From Cryobacterium sp. PAMC25264 (GTDB taxonomy: Bacteria > Actinomycetota > Actinomycetes > Actinomycetales > Microbacteriaceae): a stretch of DNA of 64,000 bases. Every line of letters begins with the position of its first letter. The first letter of the stretch is position 1. The stretch covers positions 2,480,001 through 2,544,000 of the forward strand of contig NZ_CP080383.1 of the NCBI RefSeq assembly GCF_019443325.1, in the 5' to 3' direction. The position numbers and the translations under genes are program-made. This document shows, in pieces, positions 22,275 through 35,787 of the stretch. The notes beneath the pieces were generated by a model. That model was not told the origin of the DNA and searched no databases. It saw only the letters and a program-made list of their open reading frames with translations.

Positions 22275-22391
22275 CTGCATCCTCTGCATCCTCTGCATCC
22301 GCTGCATCCTCTGCATCCTCTGCATCCGCTGCATCCGCCGCATCCGCTGCATCCGCTGCATCCTCTGCATCCTCTGCATCCTCTGCATCCG
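22275..22391. repeat. 9-bp tandem array (CTGCATCCK)
   Basis: Thirteen consecutive 9-bp units differing only at the last base (T or G) and once at the second base. It starts 53 bases after the mscL stop. The core GCATCC is also frequent across the whole window in both orientations. No coding role is supported, although the period of nine keeps all frames open. Confidence 0.9.
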
Positions 22392-22420
22392 CCGCGTAGA
22401 CGCACAGACCCCCGCGGCGT

Positions 22421-22640
22421 TGACTTGCGGCATACGACCCCTCGCGGCGCCGGAAAGGGTGCTTCGTTGCATCTCGCGGGTCGTCTACCGCCGACGTGGC
22501 CCGAGCTGGCTTGAGACATGCTGTCCCTTCACGGCGCCGCACGGGGCTCTGCGCTGAATCTCACCGACTGACCGCCCGCCGACTTGCGCCATGTCGCCCG
22601 CTCACGGAGCCGGAAGGAGTGCTTGGCTGCATCTCGGGAT
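22421..22640. repeat. three degenerate copies of a ~79-bp repeat
   Basis: Copies begin at about 22421 (TGACTTGCGGC), about 22502 and about 22581 (GACTTGCGCC). Each holds a version of CTCRCGGNGCCGGAARGRGTGCTT followed by TGCATCTCG. The last copy is cut by the G8 tract where the IS110 element begins. The 443 bases from 22222 to 22664 hold only this and the 9-bp array. Confidence 0.6.
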
Positions 22641-22664
22641 GGGGGGGGTGCCCCTATGTTCTTG

Positions 22665-23864
22665 TCAAGCGGCGAGCTGATGGTCGGCTTGGTAGAGGGT
22701 GCCGTCGCGGAGCATGGCGTAGAGAACGTCGCAGCGTCGGCGAGCGAGGGCGATGAGGGCTTGGTTGTGGCGTTTGCCTTGGGCGATTTTGCGGTCGTAG
22801 TAGGCGCGTGAGAGCGGGTCGCGGAGCGCGGCGAAGGCGGAGAGGAACAGGGCTCGTTTCAGGATCTTGTTCCCGCGTCGGGAGGGGTGCTCGCCGCGGA
22901 TGGAGCTGCCGGAGCGGCGGGTGACCGGTGCGAGGCCGGCGTAGGCGGCGAGGTGGCCGGCGGTGGCGAAGTCCTTGCCCGAGACTTCGGTGAGGAGTCT
23001 GGCGGCGGTCCTGATCCCGACTCCGGGCATGCTGATCAGGACGGGGTGAAGAGGGTGAGCCTCCACGAGCCGTTCTACTTCGACCGCGATCTCGTCCCGT
23101 TGCCGGCGGAGTGCTGCGAGTTGTTCGGCGAGTCTGGGGAGCACAATGCTGCTGGCATTCGTGCCAGTGACCACGACGGTCTGCTCGCTCAGGGCCCGGG
23201 TGATTTCGTCTGCGAGGCGGCGGCCCATGCGTGGTGCCAGCTTCACGAGCCGGTTGCCAAGGCGGGTCGTGCCGGCCGCTTTCATCGCAGCTGGCGTGGG
23301 GTAGCGCTGCAGCAAGTCCAACACCGCGGGATGGTCCAAGTGCGGGCCGAGAACACGCTCCAACGCGGGGTGGATCTGGGTGAGGAGGCCCCGGATGCGG
23401 TTACTCGTGGCGGTGATCTGGCCGACAACGTCGTCGTCGAAGCCGCAGAGCATCGAGAGCTCAGCAACCTGCTCATCAGCCAGCTGTAGCGACCGCAGGG
23501 CGTGCGGGAGGCTCCTCGCGGCTTGGGCGATGATTGCCGCGTCGCGGGCATCGGTCTTGGCTTCACCGGCGTGCAGGTCCGCGATGCGGCGCATTGCCAG
23601 ACCGGGCAGGTAGCCCACGAGCACGCCTTCGGCCTGGGCCACGGCGATCGGTAAGGCACCAATAGTCGCCGGCTGATCAACGACGAACAAGACTTGGCCG
23701 TGTCGTTTCAGCTGCCCGATCAGCTCGCGCAGCTTCGCCTCATCGTTGGGTAAAGCCTTGTCGAAGAGTTGCTTGCCGGCCCGGTTGAGGGCGACCGCGT
23801 GGTGTTCTCCCTTGCCGACGTCCACGCCGATGAAGACGTCGACGCTGTCGTAGTTCTCGATCAT
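22665..23864 (-). CDS. IS110-family transposase
   Basis: 399-aa intact DEDD recombinase. The N-terminal RuvC-like domain shows FIGVDVGKGEHHAVAL (first Asp), FVVDQPATIG and AKTDARDAAIIA (last acidic pair). The C-terminal Transposase_20 domain has LISMPGVGIRTAARLLTEVSG and LAAYAGLAPVTRRSGSSIRGE with the expected serine. No frameshift or stop, so the element may be active. GC content and codon use are close to those of the host. Confidence 0.95.
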   Translation of the reverse strand: MIENYDSVDVFIGVDVGKGEHHAVALNRAGKQLFDKALPNDEAKLRELIGQLKRHGQVLFVVDQPATIGALPIAVAQAEGVLVGYLPGLAMRRIADLHAGEAKTDARDAAIIAQAARSLPHALRSLQLADEQVAELSMLCGFDDDVVGQITATSNRIRGLLTQIHPALERVLGPHLDHPAVLDLLQRYPTPAAMKAAGTTRLGNRLVKLAPRMGRRLADEITRALSEQTVVVTGTNASSIVLPRLAEQLAALRRQRDEIAVEVERLVEAHPLHPVLISMPGVGIRTAARLLTEVSGKDFATAGHLAAYAGLAPVTRRSGSSIRGEHPSRRGNKILKRALFLSAFAALRDPLSRAYYDRKIAQGKRHNQALIALARRRCDVLYAMLRDGTLYQADHQLAA

Positions 23865-24104
23865 GAATCCTCCGTCTCAGGTTCGACAAAGTTGGCCTGA
23901 ATCGCGGCATCAAGTCTCGGCATCCACGTTACGAACGGCCTGGGACATGTCCCGGTCCAGCCCCTATCAGCGATCACCTGATACCAGTCAGGCCCGGTGA
24001 CAACACCCCCCGGATCATGGGCGACTGGGGGCAAGAACCATGCCGGGCCTGACAGGCCAACACCCTCACATAACTACACGATCAAGGGCTACGAAGAAAG
24101 TAAC
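23865..24104 (-). ncRNA. candidate bridge-RNA region of the IS110 element
   Basis: IS110-group elements encode a structured bridge RNA in the non-coding end upstream of the transposase. Here the 240-base region upstream holds several short hairpins: GGGACATGTCCC near 23943-23954, and arms based on GGCCTGA/TCAGGC between about 23976 and 24055. Guide loops were not resolved, so this is a position-based prediction only. Confidence 0.35.
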
Positions 24105-24179
24105 GGGGGGGGCCAGCATGAGGCATCCAGCCGCCATCGGCACCCCTCTGCGCCCCTCGGAGAAGCACTCACGGCAGGC

Positions 24180-24456
24180 TGACTTGCCAGTTGGCGCCCA
24201 GTGCGAGCGCCCCAGAGGGCCACAAGTGGCAACTCACTCGACGGGCGTGAGGTGACTCGCCACATCGTTTCCAGTGCGAGCGCCCCAGAGGGCCACAACT
24301 GGCAACTCACTCGACGGGCGTGAGGTGACTCGCCACATCGTGCCCAGTGCGAGCGCCCCAGAGGGCCACAACTGGCAACTCACTCGACGGGCGTGAGGTG
24401 ACTTGCCACTTCGTGCCCAGTGCGAGCGCCCCAGAGGGCCTCAGATGGCAACTCAG
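24180..24456. repeat. 73-bp tandem array, four 57-bp units with inverted termini
   Basis: Units begin at 24180, 24253, 24326 and 24399. Each is 57 bp long, opens with TGACTYGCCA and closes with TGGCAACTCA, so its ends are 10-bp inverted repeats. Units are joined by a 16-bp spacer CTCGACGGGCGTGAGG. The interior (CCAGTGCGAGCGCCCCAGAG core) is nearly identical between copies. The same 57+16 design recurs at 35515. Confidence 0.92.
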
Positions 24457-24463
24457 AATTCTG

Positions 24464-24849
24464 CTACCAGTGCGGAGGCTTGTCCTGACGCAGCCGGGCG
24501 TCGTTCGCGCTGGTCGAGGAGCCGTCGCCGGAGGTCTGGCCGCCTTCTTCGCGGGAGGGCGGCTCCGGGCTGGTGTCGGTGTTCGGTGCGGGAGTCAGGC
24601 GTGCGCGGCGAGCACCTGCCGAACGGACCACCGACTGGCGCGGTTCCACTGACCCGGATGCGCCGGCCGATGCCGCGGGCCGTGCGGCGGTGCCTCGGAT
24701 GGGTCCCTTATCGGAAACAGGCCTATCCTCAGGCACCGCGGTACCATCGGGCTCCGCGTCGACCTCGGACGGAGCAGCACCGTCGGGCACCGCGGCACCC
24801 TCAGGCGCAACCGCCGGGTCAGGCACGGTGAGCCGGACCGCCAGACCCC
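24464..24849 (-). other. out-of-frame C-terminal extension of the helicase-like gene
   Basis: After the stop at 24819, a second minus-strand frame stays open to 24464. It is rich in Pro, Ala, Asp, Glu and Ser and ends NDARLRQDKPPHW. Removing one G from the GGGG run (plus strand CCCC, 24846-24849) joins it to the upstream gene as ...TPTEGLAVRLTVPDPAV. This suggests that the true protein is about 115 residues longer. Confidence 0.5.
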
Positions 24850-27800
24850 TCGGTCGGCGTGACCCCCGCGAGGGCCGCGACGCGCGCGGCGACGGCATCC
24901 GGGTTGCTGAACAGTTCGAAGCTGTGCACGCGCAGGTAGTGCCAGCCGAGGCGGCGCAGTACCTCGGGGCGCAGCCTGAGCGACTCGCGCAGGCTGGCGC
25001 GGTTGACCACGGCGTCGGTCTCCACGACCACGGCACGTCCGGCGTGTGAAGCGGCCAGCGCGACCTTGCCACGGTGCCCGAGCGAGACGGTGAGGCCCTG
25101 GCGTTCCAGACGTCGGGCGAGGTCGACCAGCATGGCTTCGCGCGCATCCGGCACGGGCACCTCGTTGCGGCGCGCCTCGGTCTCGGTGAGCACCTGTGAC
25201 AGGGCCAGGATGCCGTGCCGCTGGCGGTCGGCGTCGATGTCGATGGGGCGGAAGCAGGAGACGATGTCCATGGCGCGGCGGGCACGGGTCATGCCGATCG
25301 CGAGCAGGCGTTCACCGCCGGGTTCGCCGAGCGAACCGAAGTTGCTCAGCAGCCGCCCGTGCGGGGTGCGGCCGTAGCCGATGGAGAAGATGACCCGGTC
25401 ACGGCTCTGCGCCACGGCCTGCTCGAGGGTGAGCACCGTGAACGGTTCGGCGCGGTCCTTGAGAATGAAGTCGCTGAGGTCGGTGCGCTTGGCGAACGCG
25501 GCGAGCACGGCCTGGTGCACGCGCACGGCGTGCCGGGCGCTGGCGGTGATCACCATGAGGGATTCGCGGGGGCGCTTGACGGCGTGGTCCATGACCAGGT
25601 CGACGACCTTGGACACCTCGGCGTCGACGCTTTCGACGGCGCCACTGTCGACGTCGGGCATGCCGTGGCCGCCCTTGACGTAGTTGAGGGTGAGGCTGCC
25701 GTGACCGAGGTAGCTCCCTGCCCAGGGCAGCGAGTCGATGCGGCCGCCGTAGAACCGGTGGTTGACCAGCTCGGCGAGGTCCTCCCCACCGGCCCGGTAG
25801 CTGCGGGTGAGGGTGAGAGTGGGCAGCAATTCGCCCAGCCGGGCCAGCGCCGAGTCGGCGTGCAGCGCGTCAACGTTGGTCTCCTGCGGGCGGGGCACGT
25901 CGGCCGGTTCCACGATGCCGGTCTCGAAGCCCGACGGCGTCTGGGTGACCGGGTCACCGAAGGCGACGACCTGCTTGGCACGGCGGATCGCGCCGACGTT
26001 CTCAGCGAGGGTGGTGGCGCCGGCGTCAACGAGGAGCACAGCGTCGAAGGTCATCTTGTCGTCGAGCCCGGCGACCTCGTACGGCGAGGCGAGCCAGACC
26101 GGTGCGAGCACACGGCCCAGGTGCGGGGCGACCTCGTTGATGCGGCCGGGGGTGGCGCGGTCGGCGCGCAGCAGCCGGCGCAGCTGGTCGGCCTCATCGG
26201 GCCAGTCGACCACGCCGATCTTCCAGGTCTCGGCGAGCAGCCACGCCAGGATCTGTCCAGTCGTGGAGGCGTGAGCCTCGTCGACGAGCTTGAAGTCGGC
26301 TTCGAGCCGGTCGAGCACCTGGGTGTTGGCGTTGAGCAGGGCCCGTTCGCCGCTGAGCATGACCTCGAGCACCGACTGCCACCAGGCGAGTTCGAGCTCG
26401 GCCGCCACGTTCTCCTCCGACACGTGCCGCTGGGACAGATCGGTCATCAGCGGGTCGAGGTTGTGCTCGCGCAGGGTGGCGAGCAGGGCCGTGCGCTCGT
26501 GCAGGTTCGCGAGCACCTCGCTCTCGGCGGCGAGGCCGACGAGAGTGCGCAACAGCTCCTTCACCGGCCGGGAGACCAGCTGGCGCGGGGTGCCGGCGTT
26601 GCCGAGCGGCACATCGAGCTTGCCGAGGTCTTCGGAGACCCGCTGGAACGCCACGTGCACATCGTTGATACCCACCGGCACCTCGGGAGTGACGCCCGCG
26701 GCCGCGTAGCGCTGCCACAGGGTGCGCTGCTGCTGGATGCGGCGCAGGCTCTCGTTCATGTCGCTCACGTGCACGCCGGGCCGCAGGTACTCGTCGGCGA
26801 GTTTGCGCAGCCGGCGACGGTTGCTCGAGGTCATCTCGGGCGAGTCCCGGCGGGCCGAGGTAGCGGCGATGAGTTCGGTCAGCGACCGGTCGAACACGGC
26901 GGGCTGGAACTTGTCCAGGGTCTCGCGGATGTCCAGGAGCAGGCGCAGGTAGATGCCCAGCTCGTGCACCGTCTCGAACGGGCGCAGCCGGGTCTGGCCG
27001 ACCAGGTGACCGGCGCGCTCGAGCAGCCGGGGAACGTCGGTCTGGCTGAGCCGCTTGGCGAGGTCGTGCGACGCACCGGCATCCGCAGTGGAGGCGAAGG
27101 AGGCGCCATACCAGGGCGAGTCGCCCGGGCCGTAGCGGAATTGGCCGAGGACGGCGGCCTTGATCAGTATCGCAGCGGCACTGGCCCGGTCGTGGGCGAG
27201 GCGCTCGAGGGCCACCCGGTCGAGCCGGGCGGTGGTCGACGGCGGCGCCGGCAGCTGGGCGAGCCGGGCGAGTTCGCCGAGCGCGTCGAGCACCGAGACG
27301 CCGAGGGCGGCGTCCTTGCGGGTGAGGGCGGAGCGGTAGTCGAGCAGCACCTTGCGCAGGCGCACGAGGGCGTCGTCGACGTCGCCGACGCGCGGCTGGG
27401 CGGCCTTCTCGTTGCGGGTGATCGACTGGATCAGGTCGCGGCGGAGGGTGCGGGGCGTGACGGCCACGCCGGGCAGGCCCACCTGCACGAGCCGGTGCGC
27501 GATGCCGTCGAGGCTGGAGCGTCGGGCGCTGACGACGAGCACACGCTTGTGCTGGGCGATGAGCGAACCGATCGCGTTCACGATGGTCTGGGTGCCGCCC
27601 GTGCCGGGCAGCGTCTTCACGACGAGGGAGTTGCCGGCGCTGATCTGCGCGACGACGTTCTCCTGCTCGGCGTCGGCATCCAGCAGCAGAGTGTCGGTGC
27701 CGGGCGGGCGCACGTCCTGGCCGATCGGCAGCACCGGGTTGTACGCCATCTCGATGGCGCGACGGGCGGTGGGGTTGCCGGCGACGGCGTCGAGCACCGG

Positions 27801-28574
27801 ATGCGTGAGCTTCTGCGCGTCGACGGCCATGGCGCGGCCGACGTCGGCGAAGGAGGACGCGACCAGCCGGGGCACCACGTTGAACCAGGGCAGGTGCGAG
27901 GTGAGGCCGCGCAGCCGGTCGATCACGGGCTGCGGCTTGAACGCCCCGTTGGTCACGGCGAGAGCGACGAACGCGTCCGCGTCGAGGGTGATCTGGAACT
28001 GGTCATGCAGCGCGCGGGCCAGTTCGGGGTTGAGGAACGGCTGGCCCTTGAGCTTGAGCTCGAAGTCACGGCCGTAGCGGCGGATGGCGAGGGGTCGTAG
28101 CAGCACCGGCGCGGTGAACTCCACGTCGCCGTGACGCCACTGGGCCAGGCCGATGGCCAGGTGCACCGACTCGATGCCGCGCATGGAGCGCAGTTCGATG
28201 CCCTTCTGGGTGATCTCGTTCGCGGCCAGGCGGGCGTTGCGGAGGGCCAGTTCGTCGCGGATCAGGTTGGAGAGCAGGGTGGTCTTGCCCGTGATGAACT
28301 GGGGCAGCCCGCCCGGGTGGGTGGCGGAGAGTTCGATGCGGGAGCGGGGGCTGTCACCGAAGTGCAGCAGCGGGGAGTGCCCGCCGACCAGGGCAAGTTC
28401 GTCCCGCCAGCGTTGCCAGGTCGGTTCGGCGATGTTCCCGGCGACCAGCGAGGGGTCCCCCAGGCTCACCGAGTCCGGGGAGGTCGCTTGACGCGAGCCG
28501 GGCGAGGACACATCGGGGTAATCCGATGTGAAATCGTCATCTTCTGGTTTTCTATCGAGGCGCCACACACCCAC
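24819..28574 (-). CDS. large SF1-helicase-like protein with C-terminal REase-like domain
   Basis: 1251 aa, resembling the AAA/DUF4011-type SF1 helicases. The C-terminal about 110 residues (VDLARRLERQGLTVSLG... to LGWHYLRVHSFELFSNPDAVA) look like the MTES_1575 Vsr-type REase domain. Helicase motifs are recognisable but eroded: the P-loop reads PGTGGTQT (residues 323-330), with Gly for the catalytic Lys, and Walker B reads LLVDAGA, with no DE pair. SYRA and GMTRARRAMD (motifs IV-VI) remain. ATP hydrolysis is doubtful. GTG start. A probable frameshift removes the last 115 residues. Confidence 0.8.
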   Translation of the reverse strand: MGVWRLDRKPEDDDFTSDYPDVSSPGSRQATSPDSVSLGDPSLVAGNIAEPTWQRWRDELALVGGHSPLLHFGDSPRSRIELSATHPGGLPQFITGKTTLLSNLIRDELALRNARLAANEITQKGIELRSMRGIESVHLAIGLAQWRHGDVEFTAPVLLRPLAIRRYGRDFELKLKGQPFLNPELARALHDQFQITLDADAFVALAVTNGAFKPQPVIDRLRGLTSHLPWFNVVPRLVASSFADVGRAMAVDAQKLTHPVLDAVAGNPTARRAIEMAYNPVLPIGQDVRPPGTDTLLLDADAEQENVVAQISAGNSLVVKTLPGTGGTQTIVNAIGSLIAQHKRVLVVSARRSSLDGIAHRLVQVGLPGVAVTPRTLRRDLIQSITRNEKAAQPRVGDVDDALVRLRKVLLDYRSALTRKDAALGVSVLDALGELARLAQLPAPPSTTARLDRVALERLAHDRASAAAILIKAAVLGQFRYGPGDSPWYGASFASTADAGASHDLAKRLSQTDVPRLLERAGHLVGQTRLRPFETVHELGIYLRLLLDIRETLDKFQPAVFDRSLTELIAATSARRDSPEMTSSNRRRLRKLADEYLRPGVHVSDMNESLRRIQQQRTLWQRYAAAGVTPEVPVGINDVHVAFQRVSEDLGKLDVPLGNAGTPRQLVSRPVKELLRTLVGLAAESEVLANLHERTALLATLREHNLDPLMTDLSQRHVSEENVAAELELAWWQSVLEVMLSGERALLNANTQVLDRLEADFKLVDEAHASTTGQILAWLLAETWKIGVVDWPDEADQLRRLLRADRATPGRINEVAPHLGRVLAPVWLASPYEVAGLDDKMTFDAVLLVDAGATTLAENVGAIRRAKQVVAFGDPVTQTPSGFETGIVEPADVPRPQETNVDALHADSALARLGELLPTLTLTRSYRAGGEDLAELVNHRFYGGRIDSLPWAGSYLGHGSLTLNYVKGGHGMPDVDSGAVESVDAEVSKVVDLVMDHAVKRPRESLMVITASARHAVRVHQAVLAAFAKRTDLSDFILKDRAEPFTVLTLEQAVAQSRDRVIFSIGYGRTPHGRLLSNFGSLGEPGGERLLAIGMTRARRAMDIVSCFRPIDIDADRQRHGILALSQVLTETEARRNEVPVPDAREAMLVDLARRLERQGLTVSLGHRGKVALAASHAGRAVVVETDAVVNRASLRESLRLRPEVLRRLGWHYLRVHSFELFSNPDAVAARVAALAGVTPTEGSGGPAHRA

Positions 28575-28667
28575 ACCCTATTTCTCCGCCGGTCGGATCT
28601 CGGTTAGGCCACCCGGTTATTTACCGCATTCGCAGGATTCTGGGGGCGATTGAGCACAATATGGTGA

Positions 28668-29684
28668 CTACAGCCAGTCTTTGCGCTTGAAGACGGCGTA
28701 GAGCCCGAACCCCATTGCGACCATCAAGGTGATCGCGAACGGATAGCCGAACTGCCATTTTAGCTCCGGCATATGGGTGAAATTCATGCCGTAGATGGTG
28801 CCGACGAGGGTGGGGGCGAACAAAATCGCCGCCCAACTGGAGATTTTCTTCACCTCTTCGCTTTGCGCCAGGCCCGTTTCGGAGAGCCGACGGGTTTCGT
28901 CGTTCTGCCGTTGGGCGACGAGGGTGCTGTGCACCGTGAGCGCGTTCTGCAGCAGCTGCCGGAACGCATCCCCCCGTTCGACGACCCGGATGGTGTGGTC
29001 GAGCACATCCCGCAGGTGCCGGTGCAACTCCACGTCCACGTTGTGCTTCTCGAAGCCCTCCTGGAGCGATTCGAGCATGCCGATCAGCGGCTGGGTGGCG
29101 CGCTGGAACTCGATGACCTCTCGGGAGAGCGCGTAGATGCGCCGGGACACGGCCTGGTCGCCGTCGAAGAGCTGGTCCTCGATTTCGTCGATGTCGTTCT
29201 CCAGGCCGGCCACGACGGGCGCGTACTCGTCGATCACCTGGTCGAGGATCGCGTACAGCACCGCCTGGGGGCCGAAGGCGAGGAGCTTGGGGGTGCTTTC
29301 CAGCCGGTGCCGCACCGAGGCGAGGTCGGGCGACTCGGCGTGCCGGATGGTCACGACGAAGTCGGGGCCCACGAACACGTGCAGTTCGCCGAACTCCACG
29401 CGCTCTTCGGTGTCGAGGTAGCGTGCCGGGCGGAGCACAAGGAACAGGGTGTCGGAGTAGCGTTCGATCTTCGCGCGCTGGTGGCCCTTGAGGGCGTCCT
29501 CGATCGCGAGGTGGTGCAGCGTGAACTCGTCAGCGACCGACCTGACCTCGTCGTCGGTCGGCCGGTACAGGCCGATCCAGGCGAAGCCGTCCTTCCCTTT
29601 GAGCACCTCGAAAACGTCCTGCAACGTTTCCGGGGTTGCCACCCGACGGCCATCCACATAGATTGCGTCATCAATCAGCGCCAC
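28668..29684 (-). CDS. corA: CorA-family magnesium/cobalt transporter
   Basis: 338-aa pentameric divalent-cation channel. The large N-terminal cytoplasmic domain and long stalk helices are followed by two C-terminal membrane helices. The selectivity motif appears as YGMNFTHMPELKWQFGYP, and the last residues KRKDWL are typical. GTG start with GAGGAG five bases upstream. Next on the same strand as the helicase-like gene, with about 90 bases between. Confidence 0.93.
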   Translation of the reverse strand: MALIDDAIYVDGRRVATPETLQDVFEVLKGKDGFAWIGLYRPTDDEVRSVADEFTLHHLAIEDALKGHQRAKIERYSDTLFLVLRPARYLDTEERVEFGELHVFVGPDFVVTIRHAESPDLASVRHRLESTPKLLAFGPQAVLYAILDQVIDEYAPVVAGLENDIDEIEDQLFDGDQAVSRRIYALSREVIEFQRATQPLIGMLESLQEGFEKHNVDVELHRHLRDVLDHTIRVVERGDAFRQLLQNALTVHSTLVAQRQNDETRRLSETGLAQSEEVKKISSWAAILFAPTLVGTIYGMNFTHMPELKWQFGYPFAITLMVAMGFGLYAVFKRKDWL

Positions 29685-29747
29685 TGCTGCTCCTCACTCG
29701 CCGTACAAGTGTGCCACCCGCGGAGGGGCGCGCCGCACAGCCGAGTG

Positions 29748-30365
29748 TCAGCGCGCCGGGCTGGCCTGCCGCTGGGGCCCCTCGTGCTTGCGATAGGTGG
29801 GGCTGAAGGAGAGCAACACCAGGCCGGCGCCGAGCACGGTCTGGCCCAGCGCGTTGCCGGGGAGCAGCGAAACCGCCCCGCCGGCCAGGATCACGACGGC
29901 GGGAAGCACCCGGTAGACCCGTGCGCGCAGGATCGCGGTGCCGAGCAACAGCCAGCCGACCCCGAACACCGCGGCGGTGAGCAGCAGCCCGAACGCGTAG
30001 GAGCCGGCACGGGCGGTACCGTCGAGCAGGCCGGGGGCGATGCGGCCCAGCGTGGGATAGAGGAACGCCTCGGCCCAGAACTGGCCGCTGATCAGGATGG
30101 TGCCGGTGCCGGCCACGATCGCCGCGGAGAACCCGAACGGCCCGATCTGCTTAGCGTGGCGCTCGTAGATCGACACCAACGACAGGATCAGGAGCAGCGC
30201 CCCGCCGAGCAGGGCGATGGAGCGTACGGCGTAGAGGGGGGTCTGCACGAGCTCGCTGGCCGCCTCGCCGGTGAGGCGTAAGACCAGGTCGAGGATGCCG
30301 CCGACCAGGAAGACCACTCCGGCCGCGAGGGTGGATGGCCTAGCCAAACCTTCGAATCTCTTCAC
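29748..30365 (-). CDS. hypothetical polytopic membrane protein
   Basis: About 205 aa with six predicted membrane helices (for example AAGVVFLVGGILDLVL, SIALLGGALLLILSLVSI and VFGVGWLLLGTAIL) and a basic C-terminus. It may belong to an uncharacterised actinobacterial membrane family; no conserved polar motif suggests a substrate. GTG at 30365 has GAGG at good spacing and is preferred over the longer frame at 30380. It lies upstream of corA on the same strand. Confidence 0.65.
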   Translation of the reverse strand: MKRFEGLARPSTLAAGVVFLVGGILDLVLRLTGEAASELVQTPLYAVRSIALLGGALLLILSLVSIYERHAKQIGPFGFSAAIVAGTGTILISGQFWAEAFLYPTLGRIAPGLLDGTARAGSYAFGLLLTAAVFGVGWLLLGTAILRARVYRVLPAVVILAGGAVSLLPGNALGQTVLGAGLVLLSFSPTYRKHEGPQRQASPAR

Positions 30366-30536
30366 TGAAACCTCACCCACCGCGCCTGCCGCCTCGACAG
30401 CCCCGCACGCCGGTGTTCATCCAGAAGGGCTGGTCCCGTTGATTCTTGCACCGGCACGGCCCCCGAACAAGGGCCATGCGGGTCGACAGGTTCGGGCATC
30501 GACCTTGACGGATGCCGGCGGCGTTAGGGTGAGGGC

Positions 30537-31298
30537 GTGTCAGATGCTCCTACCCCCGTGAACGGCCCGCCGGCGACCGGTTCACCGGGCAGTGCTCTGC
30601 CGGGCAGCGGCGCATCGGCGATCGATCTGTCGCGCACCGTGGCCGTGGCGGTGGGTGACCGGGCGGAGACCAGGGCGGGCGATCATGCCCTGCTCGCCGG
30701 CATGGTGGCCCGGTTGACCGGCGCGGCCGCCGCATCCGTCGTCCTCACCCGACGATGCCCTCACTGCGGCGCGAGCGACCACGGCCCGCTGCGGGTGAGA
30801 ATCCCCGGCTTCCCCGCCGTCGTGCCACGGGTGAGCCTGGCCCGGGCGGGTGGGCGGCTGGCCTTGGCGGTCACCGCGGCCGGCCCGGTGGGCATCGACC
30901 TGGAGTCGCTCGCCGACCTCGCCCGCGCTCCCCTTCATGACGTGGCGCTCTCCCCCGCAGAAGCAGCGACGCTCGCCACGCTGCGTCCCGCCGCCGCGGC
31001 GGAGGCGGCGCTGGCGAACATCTGGACCACGAAGGAGGCCGTGCTCAAGGCGGCCGGGTTGGGCCTCCGGGTCGACCCGCGTGAGCTCACGGTCACCCTC
31101 GAGCCGGCCGGCCGGCCCGATGGCCCCTCGCCGCGGCCGTCCGATCGTCGGACCGTGTCCTGGCCCCGCGCCCCGTTCCCCGACACCGACGTGCAGCTCT
31201 GGCCCGTGGCCGCCCCGCGGGGCACCGTGGCCACCGTCGCCGTCGTCTGCGGCGAGCGCCCTTCCGTCCTCATGGTCACGGTGCCCCCGCCGCGGTGA
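30537..31298 (+). CDS. Sfp-type 4'-phosphopantetheinyl transferase
   Basis: 253 aa. It would attach the CoA-derived arm to a carrier protein. The two catalytic motifs are present: GIDLES (119-124) for magnesium binding and WTTKEAVLKAAGLGL (163-177). An unusual zinc-ribbon-like CPHCGASDHG lies at 74-83. A plausible client is the NRPS-like synthetase at 37-41 kb, which carries an obvious carrier domain. GTG start. Confidence 0.88.
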   Translation: MSDAPTPVNGPPATGSPGSALPGSGASAIDLSRTVAVAVGDRAETRAGDHALLAGMVARLTGAAAASVVLTRRCPHCGASDHGPLRVRIPGFPAVVPRVSLARAGGRLALAVTAAGPVGIDLESLADLARAPLHDVALSPAEAATLATLRPAAAAEAALANIWTTKEAVLKAAGLGLRVDPRELTVTLEPAGRPDGPSPRPSDRRTVSWPRAPFPDTDVQLWPVAAPRGTVATVAVVCGERPSVLMVTVPPPR

Positions 31299-31407
31299 TT
31301 GCGCGGACGGCCTCGGCGTAGGTATTTTGGGCGCACCAACAGTTCGCTCTGCTCTGTCGGTTCGGCGGGGCGAAGCCGGGCCGTCCCCCAGTGAGGAGGA
31401 ACCGGCT

Positions 31408-31494
31408 ATGACGGGTCACGAGCACCCGCGGCGCCCCGGCTGGGTGACCTGGGCCATGGTCGTGATGTACATCGGCGGGCGTTCGGCGCGTTGA
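31408..31494 (+). pseudogene. truncated membrane-protein gene (5' fragment)
   Basis: An ideal ribosome site GAGGAGGA (31393-31400) precedes ATG 31408. The 28-aa frame MTGHEHPRRPGWVTWAMVVMYIGG looks like the start of a small membrane protein, and then runs into the opposite-strand ATPase remnant and stops. The rest of the gene appears to have been lost by deletion at about 31478-31486. Confidence 0.45.
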
Positions 31495-31743
31495 GGAGCG
31501 CCAGCCGGTCCAACGCCAGTTTCGCGCGGTACTCCTGCACCGTGCCGATGACCGCATTCTCGATGGCGCTGAAGCCGAACAACGCATCCTGCCATCGCCC
31601 GATCGCGAGCAGAACGGGGAAGCAGACCAGGAGGATGCCGTTGAACAGGGTGAGCACGTTGGCCCGCAGGGTGCTCCAGATGCTGCGGCTGGTCTCTTGC
31701 ACAATGCGTTCGGGCGACAGCCGATTCGGCGCAGGGCTAGCAC
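31478..31743 (-). pseudogene. P-type cation ATPase remnant
   Basis: About 85 codons match the N-terminus and first membrane segments of cation-transporting P-type ATPases: RSIWSTLRANVLTLFNGIL, LLAIGRWQDALFGFSAIENAVIGTVQEYRAK and LALDRLALLNAPNA. The remaining about 700 residues, including the phosphorylation motif, are absent. The break coincides with the end of the plus-strand fragment, so one deletion removed the distal parts of both genes. Confidence 0.75.
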
Positions 31744-31811
31744 CGTCTCGGTCCTCGGGCTTAGCGTGAGGTGATGGACGCCAACCGGTTCACCGTAGCC
31801 CCGCCGCTGAA

Positions 31812-32165
31812 GTGCAGGATTGCATCGACGCCTGCACCGAGCTGGAGCGGGCGAGCGAGGATTGCGCGGAGGCGTGCCTACGGCTGGACGGTGACGGCGA
31901 CGTCACGGACTGTTTCCTGGCCGACCTGGACTGCGTGGAAGTCTGCGCGGCGACCAACCGGCTGCTCGGGTGGCGCTCACGCACCGACGGGCCCACGACG
32001 CAAGCAATGCTGCTGGCCTGCCGTGCGGCCGCATCCGTTTCGATCGCGGCCTGTGAACGGATGCTGCCGGGCCGTCCGCACTGGATTTCGTGTGTTCCCG
32101 CCGCCCACCGCGCTATCGAGGCCTGCACGGCGCTTCTGAAGGTTTTCGAGCCCGACGCCGTGTAG
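31812..32165 (+). CDS. Cys-rich four-helix-bundle copper-binding protein
   Basis: 117 aa with 11 Cys in DUF326 / Csp-like spacing (CIDACTELERASEDCAEACLR, then DCFLADLDCVEVC). Such proteins store Cu(I) inside a four-helix bundle, usually in the cytosol. The GTG start at 31812 has no clear ribosome site. An ATG with GAGGTG upstream lies at 31774 in another frame, so a one-base frameshift near 31800 is possible. The neighbouring ATPase remnant hints at a lost metal-resistance module. Confidence 0.75.
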   Translation: MQDCIDACTELERASEDCAEACLRLDGDGDVTDCFLADLDCVEVCAATNRLLGWRSRTDGPTTQAMLLACRAAASVSIAACERMLPGRPHWISCVPAAHRAIEACTALLKVFEPDAV

Positions 32166-32199
32166 CGCACCGGACTCGGTGGGTCGGGGCCTGGGGCCG

Positions 32200-32835
32200 C
32201 TACTCGGTCTCGGCCGGCGCGGACAGGAAGAGCGGGTCAGCGACGCGCTCGGTCTTGGCGGCCGGGATGTGCTGATCGGTCCGGGGCGGGTGATCGAACA
32301 GACCTACCTCATCCAAGCCCAACGTATCCGGCATCGGCATCCGCAGCGCGGACCGCACGATCCGCAGGGCCCCACGAGCGAAGAACAGATCGATGTCTCG
32401 CTGGGGCGCGCCAGTGAGCGCGGTGACGAGCTGAATCATCCCGCTCAGACGCGTTCGGCACAGCGTTTCGATCTCCACACAGTTCCGCGCGGCGGCCCAC
32501 GCCTGCAGCTGGAACATCAGCACGACATCGTCCCGGATGAGCTCGGCATACTCCCGGCCCAGGGCGTCGAGTGTGACCACACGGCCGGCCCTCCGCTCAC
32601 GATCGGCGCAGTCGGTGGCCGACTGCTCAAGCTGATCCTGACAGGAGTCGATGCACGCCAGGAACAGCGCTTGCTTGGTGGGAAAGAGTTGGAAGAGGTA
32701 CGGCTGAGAGATGCCCAGCTCCCCTGATACCCGACTGACCGGGGTACCGACATACCCCGAGAAGGCGAACAGCGGGATCGCCGCGGCGATCGCCTGCCGT
32801 CGTCTCTCGCCGGCGGGAACGCGCTCTTCACTCAC
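32200..32835 (-). CDS. TetR-family transcriptional regulator
   Basis: 211 aa. The N-terminal HTH is clear: RRRQAIAAAIPLFAFSGYVGTPVSRVSGELGISQPYLFQLFPTKQALFLACID. The C-terminal ligand domain is divergent. GTG start at 32835, as an upstream extension is not TetR-like. Divergent from the membrane-fused alpha/beta hydrolase gene across a 725-base gap carrying two identical-type dyads, so it probably controls itself and that gene. Confidence 0.88.
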   Translation of the reverse strand: MSEERVPAGERRRQAIAAAIPLFAFSGYVGTPVSRVSGELGISQPYLFQLFPTKQALFLACIDSCQDQLEQSATDCADRERRAGRVVTLDALGREYAELIRDDVVLMFQLQAWAAARNCVEIETLCRTRLSGMIQLVTALTGAPQRDIDLFFARGALRIVRSALRMPMPDTLGLDEVGLFDHPPRTDQHIPAAKTERVADPLFLSAPAETE

Positions 32836-32925
32836 ACGCCCAATGTAGTCGCCCCGCCTGACCGCGCCTCCCCCTTCGCTTAGCGACCACTCGCAAGTGG
32901 AATCCGAGCGTGCGTGTCGGTGGCA

Positions 32926-32939
32926 TGCACATTCGTGCA
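32926..32939. promoter_or_regulatory. operator-like dyad 1
   Basis: TGCACATTCGTGCA: 5-bp arms TGCAC/GTGCA around ATTC. It lies 91 bases upstream of the TetR start codon. A second copy of the pattern GCAC-WWTC-GTGC lies 74 bp further. Confidence 0.45.
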
Positions 32940-33000
32940 GACATTCTGGGCGCAACCCGACGGATGATCGGTCCCTTGCCGCCGACGGCTCGCCAGACCC

Positions 33001-33012
33001 GCACAATCGTGC
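33001..33012. promoter_or_regulatory. operator-like dyad 2
   Basis: GCACAATCGTGC: 4-bp arms with the same centre pattern as dyad 1, about seven helical turns away. A third palindrome, GCGACAGCCGGTGTCGC, lies at 33159-33175. The remainder of 32836-33560 shows no convincing gene apart from a 26-codon frame at 33274. Confidence 0.4.
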
Positions 33013-33273
33013 AGGGTGAAGCCTGTTGCCCGGCCCGGTTGGGCCGCTAACATCGACAGATCAGCCCGGCTGTCGACCGTGCGCTGTAGGAAGAATCCGT
33101 CTCGGATGTGTGGCAATCCGGGCCGCCACCGCACCCGGGCGCGATCCGCCGGACGGGTGCGACAGCCGGTGTCGCGACGACCGATGCAGGGTCCGGGTTC
33201 GGCTCGGGCTGCCCCGCAGCCCGACCCGCAAACCCGTGACGGAAGCCAGAAACGAATGATCAAAGGAGATCGC

Positions 33274-33354
33274 ATGGACACCATCCCACAACCGCGGAAC
33301 CAACCGCCGTACTGCCGCCGGTCAGGCAGCGCACCGCTCGACACCGTTCGATAG
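33274..33354 (+). CDS. possible 26-aa leader peptide
   Basis: ATG 33274 follows AAAGGAG at ideal spacing. The product MDTIPQPRNQPPYCRRSG... has no recognised family. It lies about 200 bases upstream of the hydrolase gene and could be a leader peptide or a chance frame with a good ribosome site. Confidence 0.3.
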   Translation: MDTIPQPRNQPPYCRRSGSAPLDTVR

Positions 33355-33560
33355 CCGGCTCACCCTCAGAATCACAGCCGCGCCCAGCAGCCACCTGCCG
33401 CTCCCACGACCAGCGGCAGGTGCGCATCCCGGCCATTCGCCCGTGTCGTCTTCGGCACGAACGACCTCCCGCCGGCACGATCCGGCAGCCGCCTCTTCTG
33501 CGTGCCGTCGACCCCCTCGTCTCTCCTCTCACCAACCCGAAATTCTAGGAGCACAGCACC

Positions 33561-35411
33561 ATGCCCACCCCATTCCTTCGAAGGAACAGCTTCTGGCTGA
33601 TCCTCTCGCTCGCCCTCTGCCTGATCTCGGCGGTTGGCGCCTCCTTCGTTCAGAGCAACGGGGCAACCGTCGCCGTCACGGACATGCGCTGGGAGACCAG
33701 CTCCGGGCGCGAACTGAGCGCCCTGCTGTACAAGCCCGCATCGGCGACCCCCGAAAACAAGGCCCCCGTCGTGATCGTCAGCCACGGGTGGTGGAACTCC
33801 CGGGAGATGCAGGACGCCAACTACGTTGAGCTGGCCAAGCGGGGCTATGTCGTGGTGTCCATCGACATGTACGGTCACGGCAACTCCGGCCCTCTTCCGC
33901 TCGGCATGGAATCCGAGAATGGCACCGGCATGTACGACGCCGTGAAGCTTGTCGCGCAGCTGCCCTACATCGACCCCGACAAGATCGGCGTCTCCGGCCA
34001 CTCCAACGGCGCGCGGGCGGCGAACTACGCCGTCGTCGCCGACAACGAGGCCGAGAAGCCGCTGATCTCGGCAGTGCTCCTGGTCGACAACGAAGCCTTC
34101 TACAGCGATCTGACCGACCCGGCGAAGTATGTCAACAACTACGGCTCGCGTGACGTCGGGCTCGTCGCCGACCAGTATGACGAGTTCTTCTTCCGCAGCT
34201 ATGACGCCAACGGCCAGCAGCTCACCCCGCCCCGCGAGTTCATCGGAACTCCGAATGCCCAGTCCTTCCTACACTTCGGCACGACGGATGACTCCGACGT
34301 GCGCACGGCCGACGAGCTGTACACCGAGACCATCGACGGCACGGACGCCCTCCGCGTGGTCTACACGCCCGCCCAGACCCACCCGTGGGGACCCTTCTCG
34401 AAGCAGACCACCGAGTACACCATCGACTTCTTCCAGGAGGCTTTCGGCGCCCCGGACCCCATCCCGGCCGGATCGCAGACCTGGCAGCTCAAGGCGTTCT
34501 TCAACGCGCTGGGCCTGATCGGTTTCGGGATGTTCCTGGTCGCCTTCACCAAGGCGCTGCTCGTCACCCGCGCCTTCGCCGGACTTCGCCGCACCGAACC
34601 GTTCCAGCTCGCACCGAGCAGCCGAAAGGGCTTGTACTGGTTCTGGGGTGCCCTCGTGGTGTCCGCCCTGTTCTCGGGCTGGAGTTATGTGGCCCTGAGC
34701 CAGTCGGCGGCCCTCACCCCGATCGTGTTCAACGCCGCCCCCACCTGGATTCCCCAGGGAGCGCCGTTCTTCATCGGGCTCTGGGCGGCGGTCAACGGTG
34801 TCTTCAGCATCGTCGTCATGGTCGTGTCCTACCTGCTGTTCGGCCGGAAGAACGGCCAGAACCTGCGGGAGGTCGGCGTGTTCCCCGGCTGGAAGCCGTT
34901 CCTGCATGGACTGGGATTGTCCGCTGTGGTTGTGGTGGCGGCCTTCGGGATCGTGTTCGTCGTCGACTACTTCTTCAAGACCGATTTCCGGTTCTGGGTG
35001 CTCGCGGTGAAGGCGTTCACCCCCGACAAGGTGGGGATTGCGTTCCTCTACCTGCCGCTGTTCCTCGTCTACTACGTCGCCAACTCTGTCGCGATCAACA
35101 GCTTCAACCGGTTCACGATCCGCGAGAAGGAGTGGGTGAATACCGCGATCCTCGCCCTATTCAATTCCCTTGCCCCGCTGGTGCTGGTCATCGCGCAGTA
35201 CTGGACCTTCTTCGTGACCGGCGATCTGATCCCCGGGTTCGGCGGAATCTTCAGCATCTGGCTGTTCCCGGTCATCGTGATCCTGGCAGCCTCGGCGGTC
35301 ATCACCCGCAAGATCTTCCGCGCCACCAACAATCCGTACATCGGCGGTTTCATCATGGCCGCGGTGGTGACCGTCATCTCGGTGACGAACACGCTCACCG
35401 TCGTCAGCTAG
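33561..35411 (+). CDS. membrane-fused alpha/beta hydrolase
   Basis: 616 aa. A signal-anchor helix (residues 11-30) is followed by an extracytoplasmic or cytoplasmic alpha/beta-hydrolase domain, with SHGWWNSREM, nucleophile elbow GHSNG (S148) and a late AQTHPWGPF that may hold the catalytic His. From about residue 310 to the end there are about eight membrane helices. Hydrolase-plus-polytopic fusions of this type occur in Gram-positives; substrate unknown. GC is slightly lower and Phe/Tyr content higher than in the neighbours. Divergent from the TetR gene. Confidence 0.82.
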   Translation: MPTPFLRRNSFWLILSLALCLISAVGASFVQSNGATVAVTDMRWETSSGRELSALLYKPASATPENKAPVVIVSHGWWNSREMQDANYVELAKRGYVVVSIDMYGHGNSGPLPLGMESENGTGMYDAVKLVAQLPYIDPDKIGVSGHSNGARAANYAVVADNEAEKPLISAVLLVDNEAFYSDLTDPAKYVNNYGSRDVGLVADQYDEFFFRSYDANGQQLTPPREFIGTPNAQSFLHFGTTDDSDVRTADELYTETIDGTDALRVVYTPAQTHPWGPFSKQTTEYTIDFFQEAFGAPDPIPAGSQTWQLKAFFNALGLIGFGMFLVAFTKALLVTRAFAGLRRTEPFQLAPSSRKGLYWFWGALVVSALFSGWSYVALSQSAALTPIVFNAAPTWIPQGAPFFIGLWAAVNGVFSIVVMVVSYLLFGRKNGQNLREVGVFPGWKPFLHGLGLSAVVVVAAFGIVFVVDYFFKTDFRFWVLAVKAFTPDKVGIAFLYLPLFLVYYVANSVAINSFNRFTIREKEWVNTAILALFNSLAPLVLVIAQYWTFFVTGDLIPGFGGIFSIWLFPVIVILAASAVITRKIFRATNNPYIGGFIMAAVVTVISVTNTLTVVS

Positions 35412-35514
35412 TTCGGCCGGGCTTCAGGCCCGCCGACGGGTGCTGTCGCGGCAGCTCAAGAGAACACGTTCTTGCGTTGCCGCGAAGCGCCCCCGATGAG
35501 GGTGCCGAGCTATC

Positions 35515-35644
35515 TGACTTGCCACTTCAAGCCCCTTGGAAGCCCGGGAGAGGGTGCGAACTGGCAAGTCGCCCGCCGTCCTTGTGGTGACTTGCCGGTT
35601 GAGGCCCACTCAGCGAGTGTGTGGGGGCGCAAAGTGGCAACTCA
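35515..35644. repeat. 73-bp array, two 57-bp units (second locus)
   Basis: Units begin at 35515 and 35588, exactly 73 bp apart. Each is 57 bp, opens with TGACTTGCC and closes with TGGCAAGTCG or TGGCAACTCA, with a 16-bp spacer between. Interiors differ from each other and from the 24.2-kb array, while the ends and distances are kept. A degenerate third unit may lie at 35702-35759. The gap from 35412 to 35787 holds no gene. Confidence 0.85.
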
Positions 35645-35787
35645 TCTCAGGAAGCGTAGGAGTGCGGCCGACCGGAGTCTGTCACACGAGGCACTGCGCG
35701 CCGAGTTGCCGTTAAATCATCTTCTTGGCGCATCCGAAGAGGCGCTTAGCAACAACTCAGTCGTGCGTTCGCCCGTTAGAGGGCAGG

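Follow-up and report, generated by a model that had tools for sequence, protein, structure and literature searches.

Palindromic units in the window

The window is a 64,000-nucleotide stretch of the Cryobacterium sp. PAMC25264 genome (contig NZ_CP080383.1, positions 2,480,001 to 2,544,000) and contains two arrays of a 57-bp palindrome (type A), whose units and spacers are given here without strand. The first array is composed of four units, at 24180..24236, 24253..24309, 24326..24382, and 24399..24455. The first three have profile scores of 55.5, 42.9, and 47.9 bits, and the fourth aligns with a single type A unit of another genome (G024, locus L036). The 16-bp spacer at 24237..24252 recurs with the same sequence in all three gaps, indicating that the array has expanded recently and locally. 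The second array is a doublet between convergent genes, with units at 35515..35571 (46.2 bits) and 35588..35644 (45.4 bits). Its 16-bp spacer (35572..35587) is unlike that of the first array in sequence. The period is exactly 73 bp in both arrays.

This organization (four plus two units of 57 bp, 16-bp spacers, and a 73-bp period) reproduces the original prediction, with coordinates that agree except for the final base of the first array, which is 24455 and not 24456. The shared end sequence that had been described is also present, except that the first unit of the second array ends in TGGCAAGTCG rather than TGGCAACTCA. Both arrays lie outside genes, as had been proposed, and have zero overlap with independently predicted genes. 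A generic pattern allowing up to three mismatches matches five of the six units and nothing else in the 64-kb window, and none of 100 shuffles yields a match.

An IS110-family element lies next to the four-unit array, at approximately 22640..24115 on the minus strand (ends placed by eye against G024), with its transposase gene at 22665-23864. Across this element from the type A array is a pair of units of a second type, type B (CGAGTTGCCGCAAAGTGCCCC...). The first unit of the pair (22507..22563) is degenerate; the second (22580..22636; E 1.7e-6) is 73 bp away, and both align with G024. The unit at 22507 is absent from the list of profile model R2 and is supported by its generic score (20/24), the 73-bp distance, and the G024 alignment; the generic score alone is weak, with seven hits of at least 18 in five random 64-kb sequences. 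A third, degenerate type B unit is located in the same intergenic region at 22421..22476 (E 3.7e-6). The degenerate pair and this third unit were not part of the original prediction. Near the second type A array, what is probably left of another unit (CGAGTTGCC...CAACTCAG) is recognized at 35702..35760 by eye only, unscored by any model.

Family and genomic position

The 57-bp palindrome is a dispersed, mostly extragenic repeat family in Cryobacterium (Microbacteriaceae) and its relatives, with at least two types, A (the window arrays) and B. Type A has almost disappeared from one of these genomes (G004). A genome-wide search for the inverted ends with a free gap of 27-57 yields 20 forward matches versus 0 in the reversed control, and all matches are 57 bp long except one of 56 bp. 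In profile searches, which covered either 98 or 150 candidates in each genome and so give lower bounds on unit copy numbers, both strands of PAMC25264 contain at least 149 matches among 150 scored candidates. The loci fetched from this genome hold 79 merged units; 63 of these score at least 22 bits, and 60 of the 63 lie 72 or 73 bp from another strong unit. Among 126 arrays, 80 hold at least two units and 46 hold one detected unit, indicating that the doublet is not obligatory. As a short palindrome in many, mostly extragenic copies, the unit is a REP in the broad sense, and arrays of several units at regular spacing have the makeup of BIMEs.

The type A half-site, YGAsTTGCCAsTTgrgGCCCcyTs, is ~24 bp long, and the two half-sites flank a variable centre of ~9 bp. 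A doublet spans 130 bp (57+16+57). The column profile was derived from 28 full-length dimers spaced at 73 bp in which each unit scores at least 20 bits, after removal of two pairs that overlap within the four-unit array. Many half-site columns carry 1-2.7 bits, the first spacer base carries 0.45 bits, and the remaining spacer and flank columns carry at most 0.3 bits. Rfam gives no match at the arrays in 12 sources (only two tRNAs, away from the arrays). No description of the family is among the literature matches listed for Cryobacterium, actinobacterial REPs, Microbacteriaceae repeats, and phased extragenic palindromes; in the available sections of a Cryobacterium genome paper, "palindromic" is applied to CRISPR only (PMC7381226).

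The arrays lie behind the 3' ends of genes, often between convergent genes. In PAMC25264, 23 of 45 classified arrays are convergent versus 5 of 26 window gaps of at least 130 bp (p = 0.011). The 126 pooled arrays, which include orthologous loci, comprise 64 convergent, 43 codirectional, and 11 divergent cases, as well as 7 that overlap a predicted gene and 1 unclassified.

The excess of arrays between convergent genes and immediately after stop codons would also fit a BIME analogue bound by gyrase or a nucleoid protein, which would handle supercoils behind transcription units with no dedicated sequence-specific protein. The length of DNA wrapped by gyrase is close to 130 bp, in favour of such a role. 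However, the known preference of gyrase is far less specific than a 24-bp half-site, and the fact that types A and B each have their own sequence suggests dedicated readers. The available text of PMC2817692 reports that E. coli BIME-2 arrays bind gyrase. On balance, we consider this explanation distinctly improbable.

Bidirectional intrinsic transcription terminators would be expected at the same positions, after the 3' ends of genes and where two genes converge. However, no terminator-like site is present at the units of either window array and no T run follows the window units; the three terminator-like sites in 22300-25000 are at the end of the IS110 element and within the transposase gene. 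Covariation does not maintain the type A stems (see below), and termination leaves both the phase and the pairing of units unexplained. A terminator function is very improbable.

Spacing and helical phase

Pooled over the genomes, there are 209 distinct neighbour pairs in 51 flank clusters. A distance of exactly 73 bp separates 118 of the pairs, in 45 clusters, and one of 72-74 bp separates 162, in 49 clusters; the clusters join loci by chained similarity and are a rough count of independent events only. These counts are for units that score at least 14 against the profile over 39 or more aligned columns; eight loci (L103-L105 and the other-genus loci L124-L126, L130, and L133) are omitted. 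In PAMC25264, of the 32 strong neighbours no more than 400 bp away, 30 are at exactly 73 bp. Copies are thus many and their spacing fixed, in this genome and in relatives, and the 73-bp period is not the coincidence of one duplication, the alternative that the original prediction had named.

Of the remaining 47 distances, 24 are at 83-87, 93-96, or 105-109 bp, ~one to three helical turns beyond 73, and 23 (including 58, 61, 67, 70, 76, and 101) are outside these three groups. Distances of 83-109 bp join one type A and one type B unit in 22 of 25 cases. Over 76-160 bp, 27 cluster-deduplicated distances have a mean cosine of 0.515 for a period of 10.5 relative to 73 (p = 4e-5), a value that includes the first data, after which the range and period were picked. 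The statistic was set before the new loci were fetched, and these loci alone give p = 0.011 (n = 8 after removal of previously seen distances). Over a wider range, the first set gives p = 0.0155 (58-200 bp), all data give p = 0.0027 (58-201 bp), and the new loci alone give p = 0.069 (58-201 bp; n = 15). With a period of 10.0, all data give p = 0.006 (76-160 bp) and p = 0.044 (58-201 bp). The neighbour distances fall at whole helical turns, as in a phased array, with a weaker signal over the wider range.

Simple descent accounts for part of the fixed spacing, since doublets are passed on both by inheritance and by local copying. If descent were the only cause, one ancestral doublet and unequal recombination in 73-bp steps would create phase without function. 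Consistent with this, one 73-bp step separates arrays of different species (a pair at L203 versus a single unit in PAMC25264), units can be more alike within a species than across species, and the four-unit array is a recent expansion. However, the identity of spacer and centre between clusters averages 0.364-0.374, little above the flank value of 0.313, which suggests that these parts are near saturation, yet 162 of the 209 pairs deviate in length by no more than 1 bp. In addition, the distances other than 73 bp are phased, and the motif columns evolve at a slower pace than those of the spacer and centre. In 11 of 13 between-genome orthologous doublets with unconstrained identity of at least 0.5, the motif columns are more alike than the unconstrained columns; in the other 2 doublets the two classes of column are equally alike. 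The weak wide-range test on the new loci and the 46 single-unit arrays of 126 shift some weight to descent and take a little from phased sites; descent alone is nevertheless quite unlikely.

The spacing of the palindromes tracks the helix turn across species despite diverged intervening DNA. This physical clue, from sequence alone, suggests that a protein complex occupies the double-stranded DNA. The phased distances could instead reflect phased insertion rather than a function after insertion.

Doublet copying, arm covariation, and a proposed role

Besides the tandem expansion in the window, there are copies in which, as in REPINs, the copied segment is the entire doublet; it is 130 bp long and its ends are sharp. 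Five same-genome copies have unalike flanks, with identities of 92% over 130 bp (G004, L112), 88% (PAMC25264, L019), 85% (G063, L269), 83% (G023, L069), and 81% (PAMC25264, 2840674 versus 3855009, 1 Mb apart). The borders are visible in the alignment in four of the five cases, and four of the five copies are within 1 kb of the source. No target-site duplication, a mark of DDE-type MITEs, is evident by eye in the aligned copies, and a local search found no clean empty site with target duplication. A single unit is located inside a cofD gene, whereas the cofD gene of a relative is without it; this is the only clean single-unit empty-site case, the other differences being mostly one unit versus two. 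Genome G007 has a doublet where the window (~30480-30620) has none, in an alignment too poor to place the ends. The copies close to their sources and the cofD insertion support in part the earlier suggestion of a small mobile unit that inserts beside its own kind.

The RAYT transposase (PF01797) is found in 0 of 57 Cryobacterium genomes and in 5 of 14 control genomes, and RAYT-driven REPs were rejected on this ground. A parent autonomous element between arrays was set aside for the three stretches examined, which hold ordinary or unassigned genes (a glyoxalase-like gene in L112, an ORF with no Pfam match in L073, and ORFs in L167). TIGR or CRISPR-like guide arrays were considered because a TIGR-Tas model matches the neighbouring IS110 transposase below the cut-off; they were set aside, as the units are dispersed and lie beside different genes.

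Type A has no overall arm covariation, with 78.8% of cells paired versus 80.1% in shuffled data, and 0.719 versus 0.715 in a 150-unit set whose single canonical orientation may bias columns 1 and 4. Column pairs 1, 13, and 14 (3 of 24) pair above the shuffled level, and pair 11 below it. The type A palindrome therefore looks like a two-fold DNA site and not a hairpin. A structured RNA or RNA hairpin was rejected on the same result, the Rfam matches being the two tRNAs only. Type B has slight arm covariation (the observed share of paired cells is reached by 5 of 500 shuffles), and two type B units and one other-genus unit fold very stably (z -5.4, -5.8, and -10.3). A single-strand or RNA role may be possible.

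These folds, the type B covariation, and the copying of doublets would be accounted for by a REPIN-like mobile element with a single-stranded hairpin intermediate, in which the enzyme sees a DNA or RNA hairpin and the spacing is a by-product of doublet copying. REP doublets with a preferred spacing (71 bp in one group) are known as mobile units, according to the available part of PMC3116915. However, type A is without overall covariation, the folds of the four window units tested are weak (z -1.0 to -2.5), no RAYT is found in the 57 genomes, and hairpins do not predict the excess near 84, 95, and 105 bp between mostly unlike units. We regard a hairpin intermediate as unlikely.

The original suggestion of a protein bound in phase is in accordance with the phased distances, the type A arms, and the slower-changing motif columns, the binder being putative. 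We consider it somewhat probable that the repeats are a RAYT-less REP/REPIN-like family whose 130-bp doublets are phased sites for a putative DNA-binding protein and are spread by a candidate trans-acting enzyme. The basic unit would be the 57-bp two-fold palindrome, and the usual working and copied unit the doublet. A sequence-specific, probably dimeric protein would bind each palindrome as double-stranded DNA. Proteins whole turns apart (seven preferred, then eight, nine, and ten) would share a DNA face and touch, and would assemble downstream of genes, most often where two genes converge, into a short, rigid nucleoprotein array that could serve as a roadblock, a boundary, or a supercoil-handling site. 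Doublets would spread mostly to nearby sites by a putative trans-acting enzyme other than a Y1/RAYT transposase, and arrays would grow and shrink in 73-bp steps by recombination between units.

A more speculative and rather doubtful possibility is a dedicated Cryobacterium architectural system, in which a putative protein (or an A/B pair) reads the palindromes planted by doublets and builds phased boundaries between convergent genes. If so, it would be the bacterial equivalent of terminator or insulator sites arranged in arrays, and such arrays would be spread by their own small mobile element without RAYT. Repeats of the REP kind are common, and host benefit versus self-interest is an old question for them. 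The present family adds an abundant one for Actinobacteria, without the transposase that explains classical REPs.

In phased operator arrays, as in the Cryobacterium doublets, palindromic sites are whole turns apart on a single face of the DNA. Unlike the operators, the Cryobacterium sites are dispersed behind genes in dozens of copies and are copied as doublets, with a putative binder. CGTC-tagged REPs and Rickettsia palindromic elements, as described in the available part of PMC3733652, likewise have no dedicated transposase known, common dimers, and some intragenic units. However, CGTC is absent from the unit ends in the A1 and A2 consensus, the half-sites are 24 bp versus stems of 8-9 bp, and the spacer length is fixed, whereas most dimer spacers in those elements vary between 20 and 100 bp. 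In REPINs (PMC3116915, available part), the doublet is the copied unit and spacer length is kept while its sequence is free, as here. They consist of two inverted REPs around a hairpin, whereas the Cryobacterium doublet is two complete tandem palindromes, without overall compensatory change in type A and with no RAYT found in the 57 genomes.

REPs and BIMEs of enterobacteria and pseudomonads are similarly short, palindromic, dispersed, and extragenic, in regularly spaced clusters. The Cryobacterium family differs from them in its actinobacterial host, in that no RAYT is found in the 57 genomes, and in the absence of the GTAG tetranucleotide from the unit end (type A ends read YGA...TCR, and their flanks carry almost no information). 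It also differs in that each 57-bp unit is a full two-fold palindrome and the pitch is fixed at 73 bp, with whole-turn exceptions in excess. REP elements are insertion targets of IS110-family elements, as reported in the available part of PMC1525189, and the IS110-family insertion at the Cryobacterium repeats is a further likeness.

Units in the window and their distribution

The 57-bp units of the original prediction are borne out: four occupy 24180–24455 of the window and two occupy 35515–35644, with successive units 73 bp apart. A degenerate family pattern (≤3 mismatches) matches five of the six, has no other match in the 64 kb and has none in 100 shuffles. The own genome is a single contig of 4.06 Mb. 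Across it, a search for the inverted ends, with the gap left free at 27–57, gives 20 forward matches and 0 in the reversed control; all are 57 bp long, save one of 56 bp. A sequence-only model built from 22 units (R1) has at least 149 matches on both strands (150 candidates scored). Profile scoring of the own-genome loci examined yields 79 merged units. Of these, 63 score ≥22 bits, and 60 of the 63 lie 72 or 73 bp from a strong neighbour.

These units are of type A (TGAsTTGCCAsTTgaGGCCC...). Type B units (CGAGTTGCCGCAAAGTGCCCC...) have the same length and pitch, and are present in relatives and in the own genome, where, with 150 of 3442 candidates scored, a type B model (R2) matches at least 123 times over both strands; the matches include some type A units. 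In the window, a degenerate type B pair lies at 22507/22580 and a further type B unit at about 22421. An IS110-family element (22640–24115) separates this B pair from the A array at 24180–24455, its insertion point lying a few bases past a type B unit; the region is present without the insertion in relative G024 (locus L036). By eye, units resembling CTGCATCC form a short tandem repeat (about 22275–22395) directly ahead of the B units, and G024 has a shorter version of it, followed by another short repeat. For the gene adjoining the array (24819–28574), hits to the ProA and Hhe models, far below cut-off, suggest a likeness to large anti-phage proteins; its weak matches to DUF4011 and a C-terminal MTES_1575 nuclease are also both below cut-off.

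The counterpart of the 35515–35644 locus in relative G004 has one B unit and no A doublet. G004 has few strong type A units and many of type B, although its flanking DNA shares up to 97% identity with the own genome; type A seems nearly lost there. Other Cryobacterium genomes have a third type of palindrome, almost perfect (CGAGAGTGCAGTTTTGGCCCC...), at three loci (L064, L065, L066).

In one genome per species across 84,980 species (a scan that possibly left out the own genome), the 57-bp pattern has six loci, all in Cryobacterium. R1 matches at E ≤0.001 in 25 of 57 Cryobacterium genomes, ten of which, the own genome among them, have at least 20 matches on both strands. The exact type A pattern occurs in six of 40 genomes including the own, all six being Cryobacterium, and in none of 15 genomes of the order outside that genus. 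Of 299 Microbacteriaceae genomes, five contain a generic pattern, the own genome being one of them; three are from other genera, with 1–3 units each, and these units have no neighbour at 73 bp in a scan of five loci. The repeat family is real; it is common across part of a single genus and is more ordered than the original prediction could know.

Pitch and helical phase

The own genome has 32 strong neighbours at distances of up to 400 bp: 30 lie at exactly 73 bp, one at 72 and one at 189. With a further 140 stretches, taken from relatives and from the own genome, the earlier loci amount to 459 distinct unit sequences and 209 distinct pairs of neighbours. Of these pairs, 118 are at 73 bp and 162 at 72–74 bp (147 same-type, 15 mixed). 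The pairs fall into 51 flank clusters, 49 with a 72–74-bp pair and 45 with an exact 73-bp pair. In 46 of 126 arrays a single unit is detected.

The other 47 distances are non-uniform. Three whole-turn groups take 24 of them, and 26 lie between 76 and 110 bp (76; 83–87, 14 times; 93–96, seven times; 101; 105; 107; 109). In 22 of the 25 distances of 83–109 bp, an A unit is joined to a B unit. Phase relative to 73 bp, at a period of 10.5 bp, is significant in the first set (p = 0.00045, n = 21; p = 0.00125, n = 18, without repeats of one locus). The range and period were picked on these data, so the statistic was fixed beforehand and applied to new loci, giving p = 0.011 (n = 10), and again p = 0.011 without loci already seen (n = 8). 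All data, deduplicated and including the first set, give p = 4e-5 (n = 27). The phase is weaker over a wider range: p = 0.0155 in the first set at 58–200 bp and, at 58–201 bp, 0.0027 for all data (n = 43) and 0.069 for new loci alone (n = 15). For all data, p is 0.006 (76–160 bp) and 0.044 (58–201 bp) at a period of 10.0, and 5e-5 and 0.0008 at 11.0. Longer distances may conceal undetected intermediate units. In another Cryobacterium, related units form an array (L056, 809–1552) with distances of 92, 184, 132, 195 and 84 bp, not 73.

Palindromes as proposed double-stranded sites, and known repeats

The half-sites hold most of the information; centre, spacer and flanks hold little (spacer ≤0.45 bits). 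Twenty doublet pairs have one flank that can be aligned. For the 13 of them that compare different genomes, likeness is higher in motif columns than in unconstrained ones in 11 and equal in two. In 22 type A units, pairing between the arms does not exceed that of shuffled arms (78.8 vs 80.1% of cells), and RNAalifold detects no pair preserved by a double change. With 150 units, mean pairing is 0.719 vs 0.715 shuffled, with columns 1, 13 and 14 above the shuffles and column 11 below. On these sequence comparisons, type A does not look like a hairpin. Type B has a slight pairing excess (81.7 vs 79.7%; 0.733 vs 0.713 with 239 units), and two folded type B units are strong hairpins, whereas four window units are not.

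In the simplest account, a putative sequence-specific protein would read each palindrome as double-stranded DNA, and the protein on one palindrome would meet its neighbour's across a whole number of helical turns. REP doublets that move as units and favour certain spacings have been described (PMC3116915); some REPs are reported without a dedicated transposase, and some inside genes (PMC3733652). BIMEs are reported to bind gyrase and IHF (PMC2817692), and IS110 is given as the most represented family among REP-associated insertion sequences (PMC1525189). The Cryobacterium family is REP-like in the broad sense, but by the defining tests it does not belong to the RAYT-associated REPs, and the Y1 transposase (PF01797) is found in none of 57 Cryobacterium genomes. 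Helical phasing of these repeats is not described among the literature matches listed.

Gene context, inheritance and mobility

Arrays were classed with our own codon-usage gene finder. Of 126 arrays from several genomes, orthologous loci pooled, 64 are convergent, 43 codirectional and 11 divergent; seven overlap a predicted gene and one is unclassified. Median distances over six sets are 24–41 bp to gene 3' ends and 91–118 bp to 5' ends. The own genome has 48 arrays, three overlapping a predicted gene; 23 of the 45 classified are convergent, vs five of 26 window gaps of ≥130 bp (p = 0.011). From this position behind genes, one might guess at a role as roadblock, as boundary or in supercoil handling.

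Sequence matches to own stretches exist for 39 of an early set of 55 loci from relatives (some of these loci overlap), indicating that array positions are often inherited. One of the 39 (L037, from relative G007) matches a place in the window without an array; its type A doublet corresponds to about 30480–30620, where the window has none. Some arrays show concerted evolution within species, and differences between species are 73-bp steps.

Near copies of the 130-bp doublet occur between unalike flanks in G004 (L112, 92%; flanks 37/30%), the own genome (L019, 88%) and relatives G063 (L269, 85%) and G023 (L069, 83%). Two own doublets 1 Mb apart (2840674 and 3855009) are 81% alike, again with unalike flanks. 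The likeness stops at the doublet borders in the four copies aligned base by base; L269 was judged by identities only. Unconstrained identity of ≥0.7 between clusters is reached in eight of 6440 comparisons, and in three of 26,844 for flank columns. In addition, cofD (PF01933) of the own genome (L236, 2129–3190) contains a 57-bp type B unit in frame, as does cofD in relative G040 (L128), whereas cofD in G023 (L181) is uninterrupted. By eye, L181 also carries an ABC-transporter-like reading frame (243–2186) with apparent translated palindrome units.
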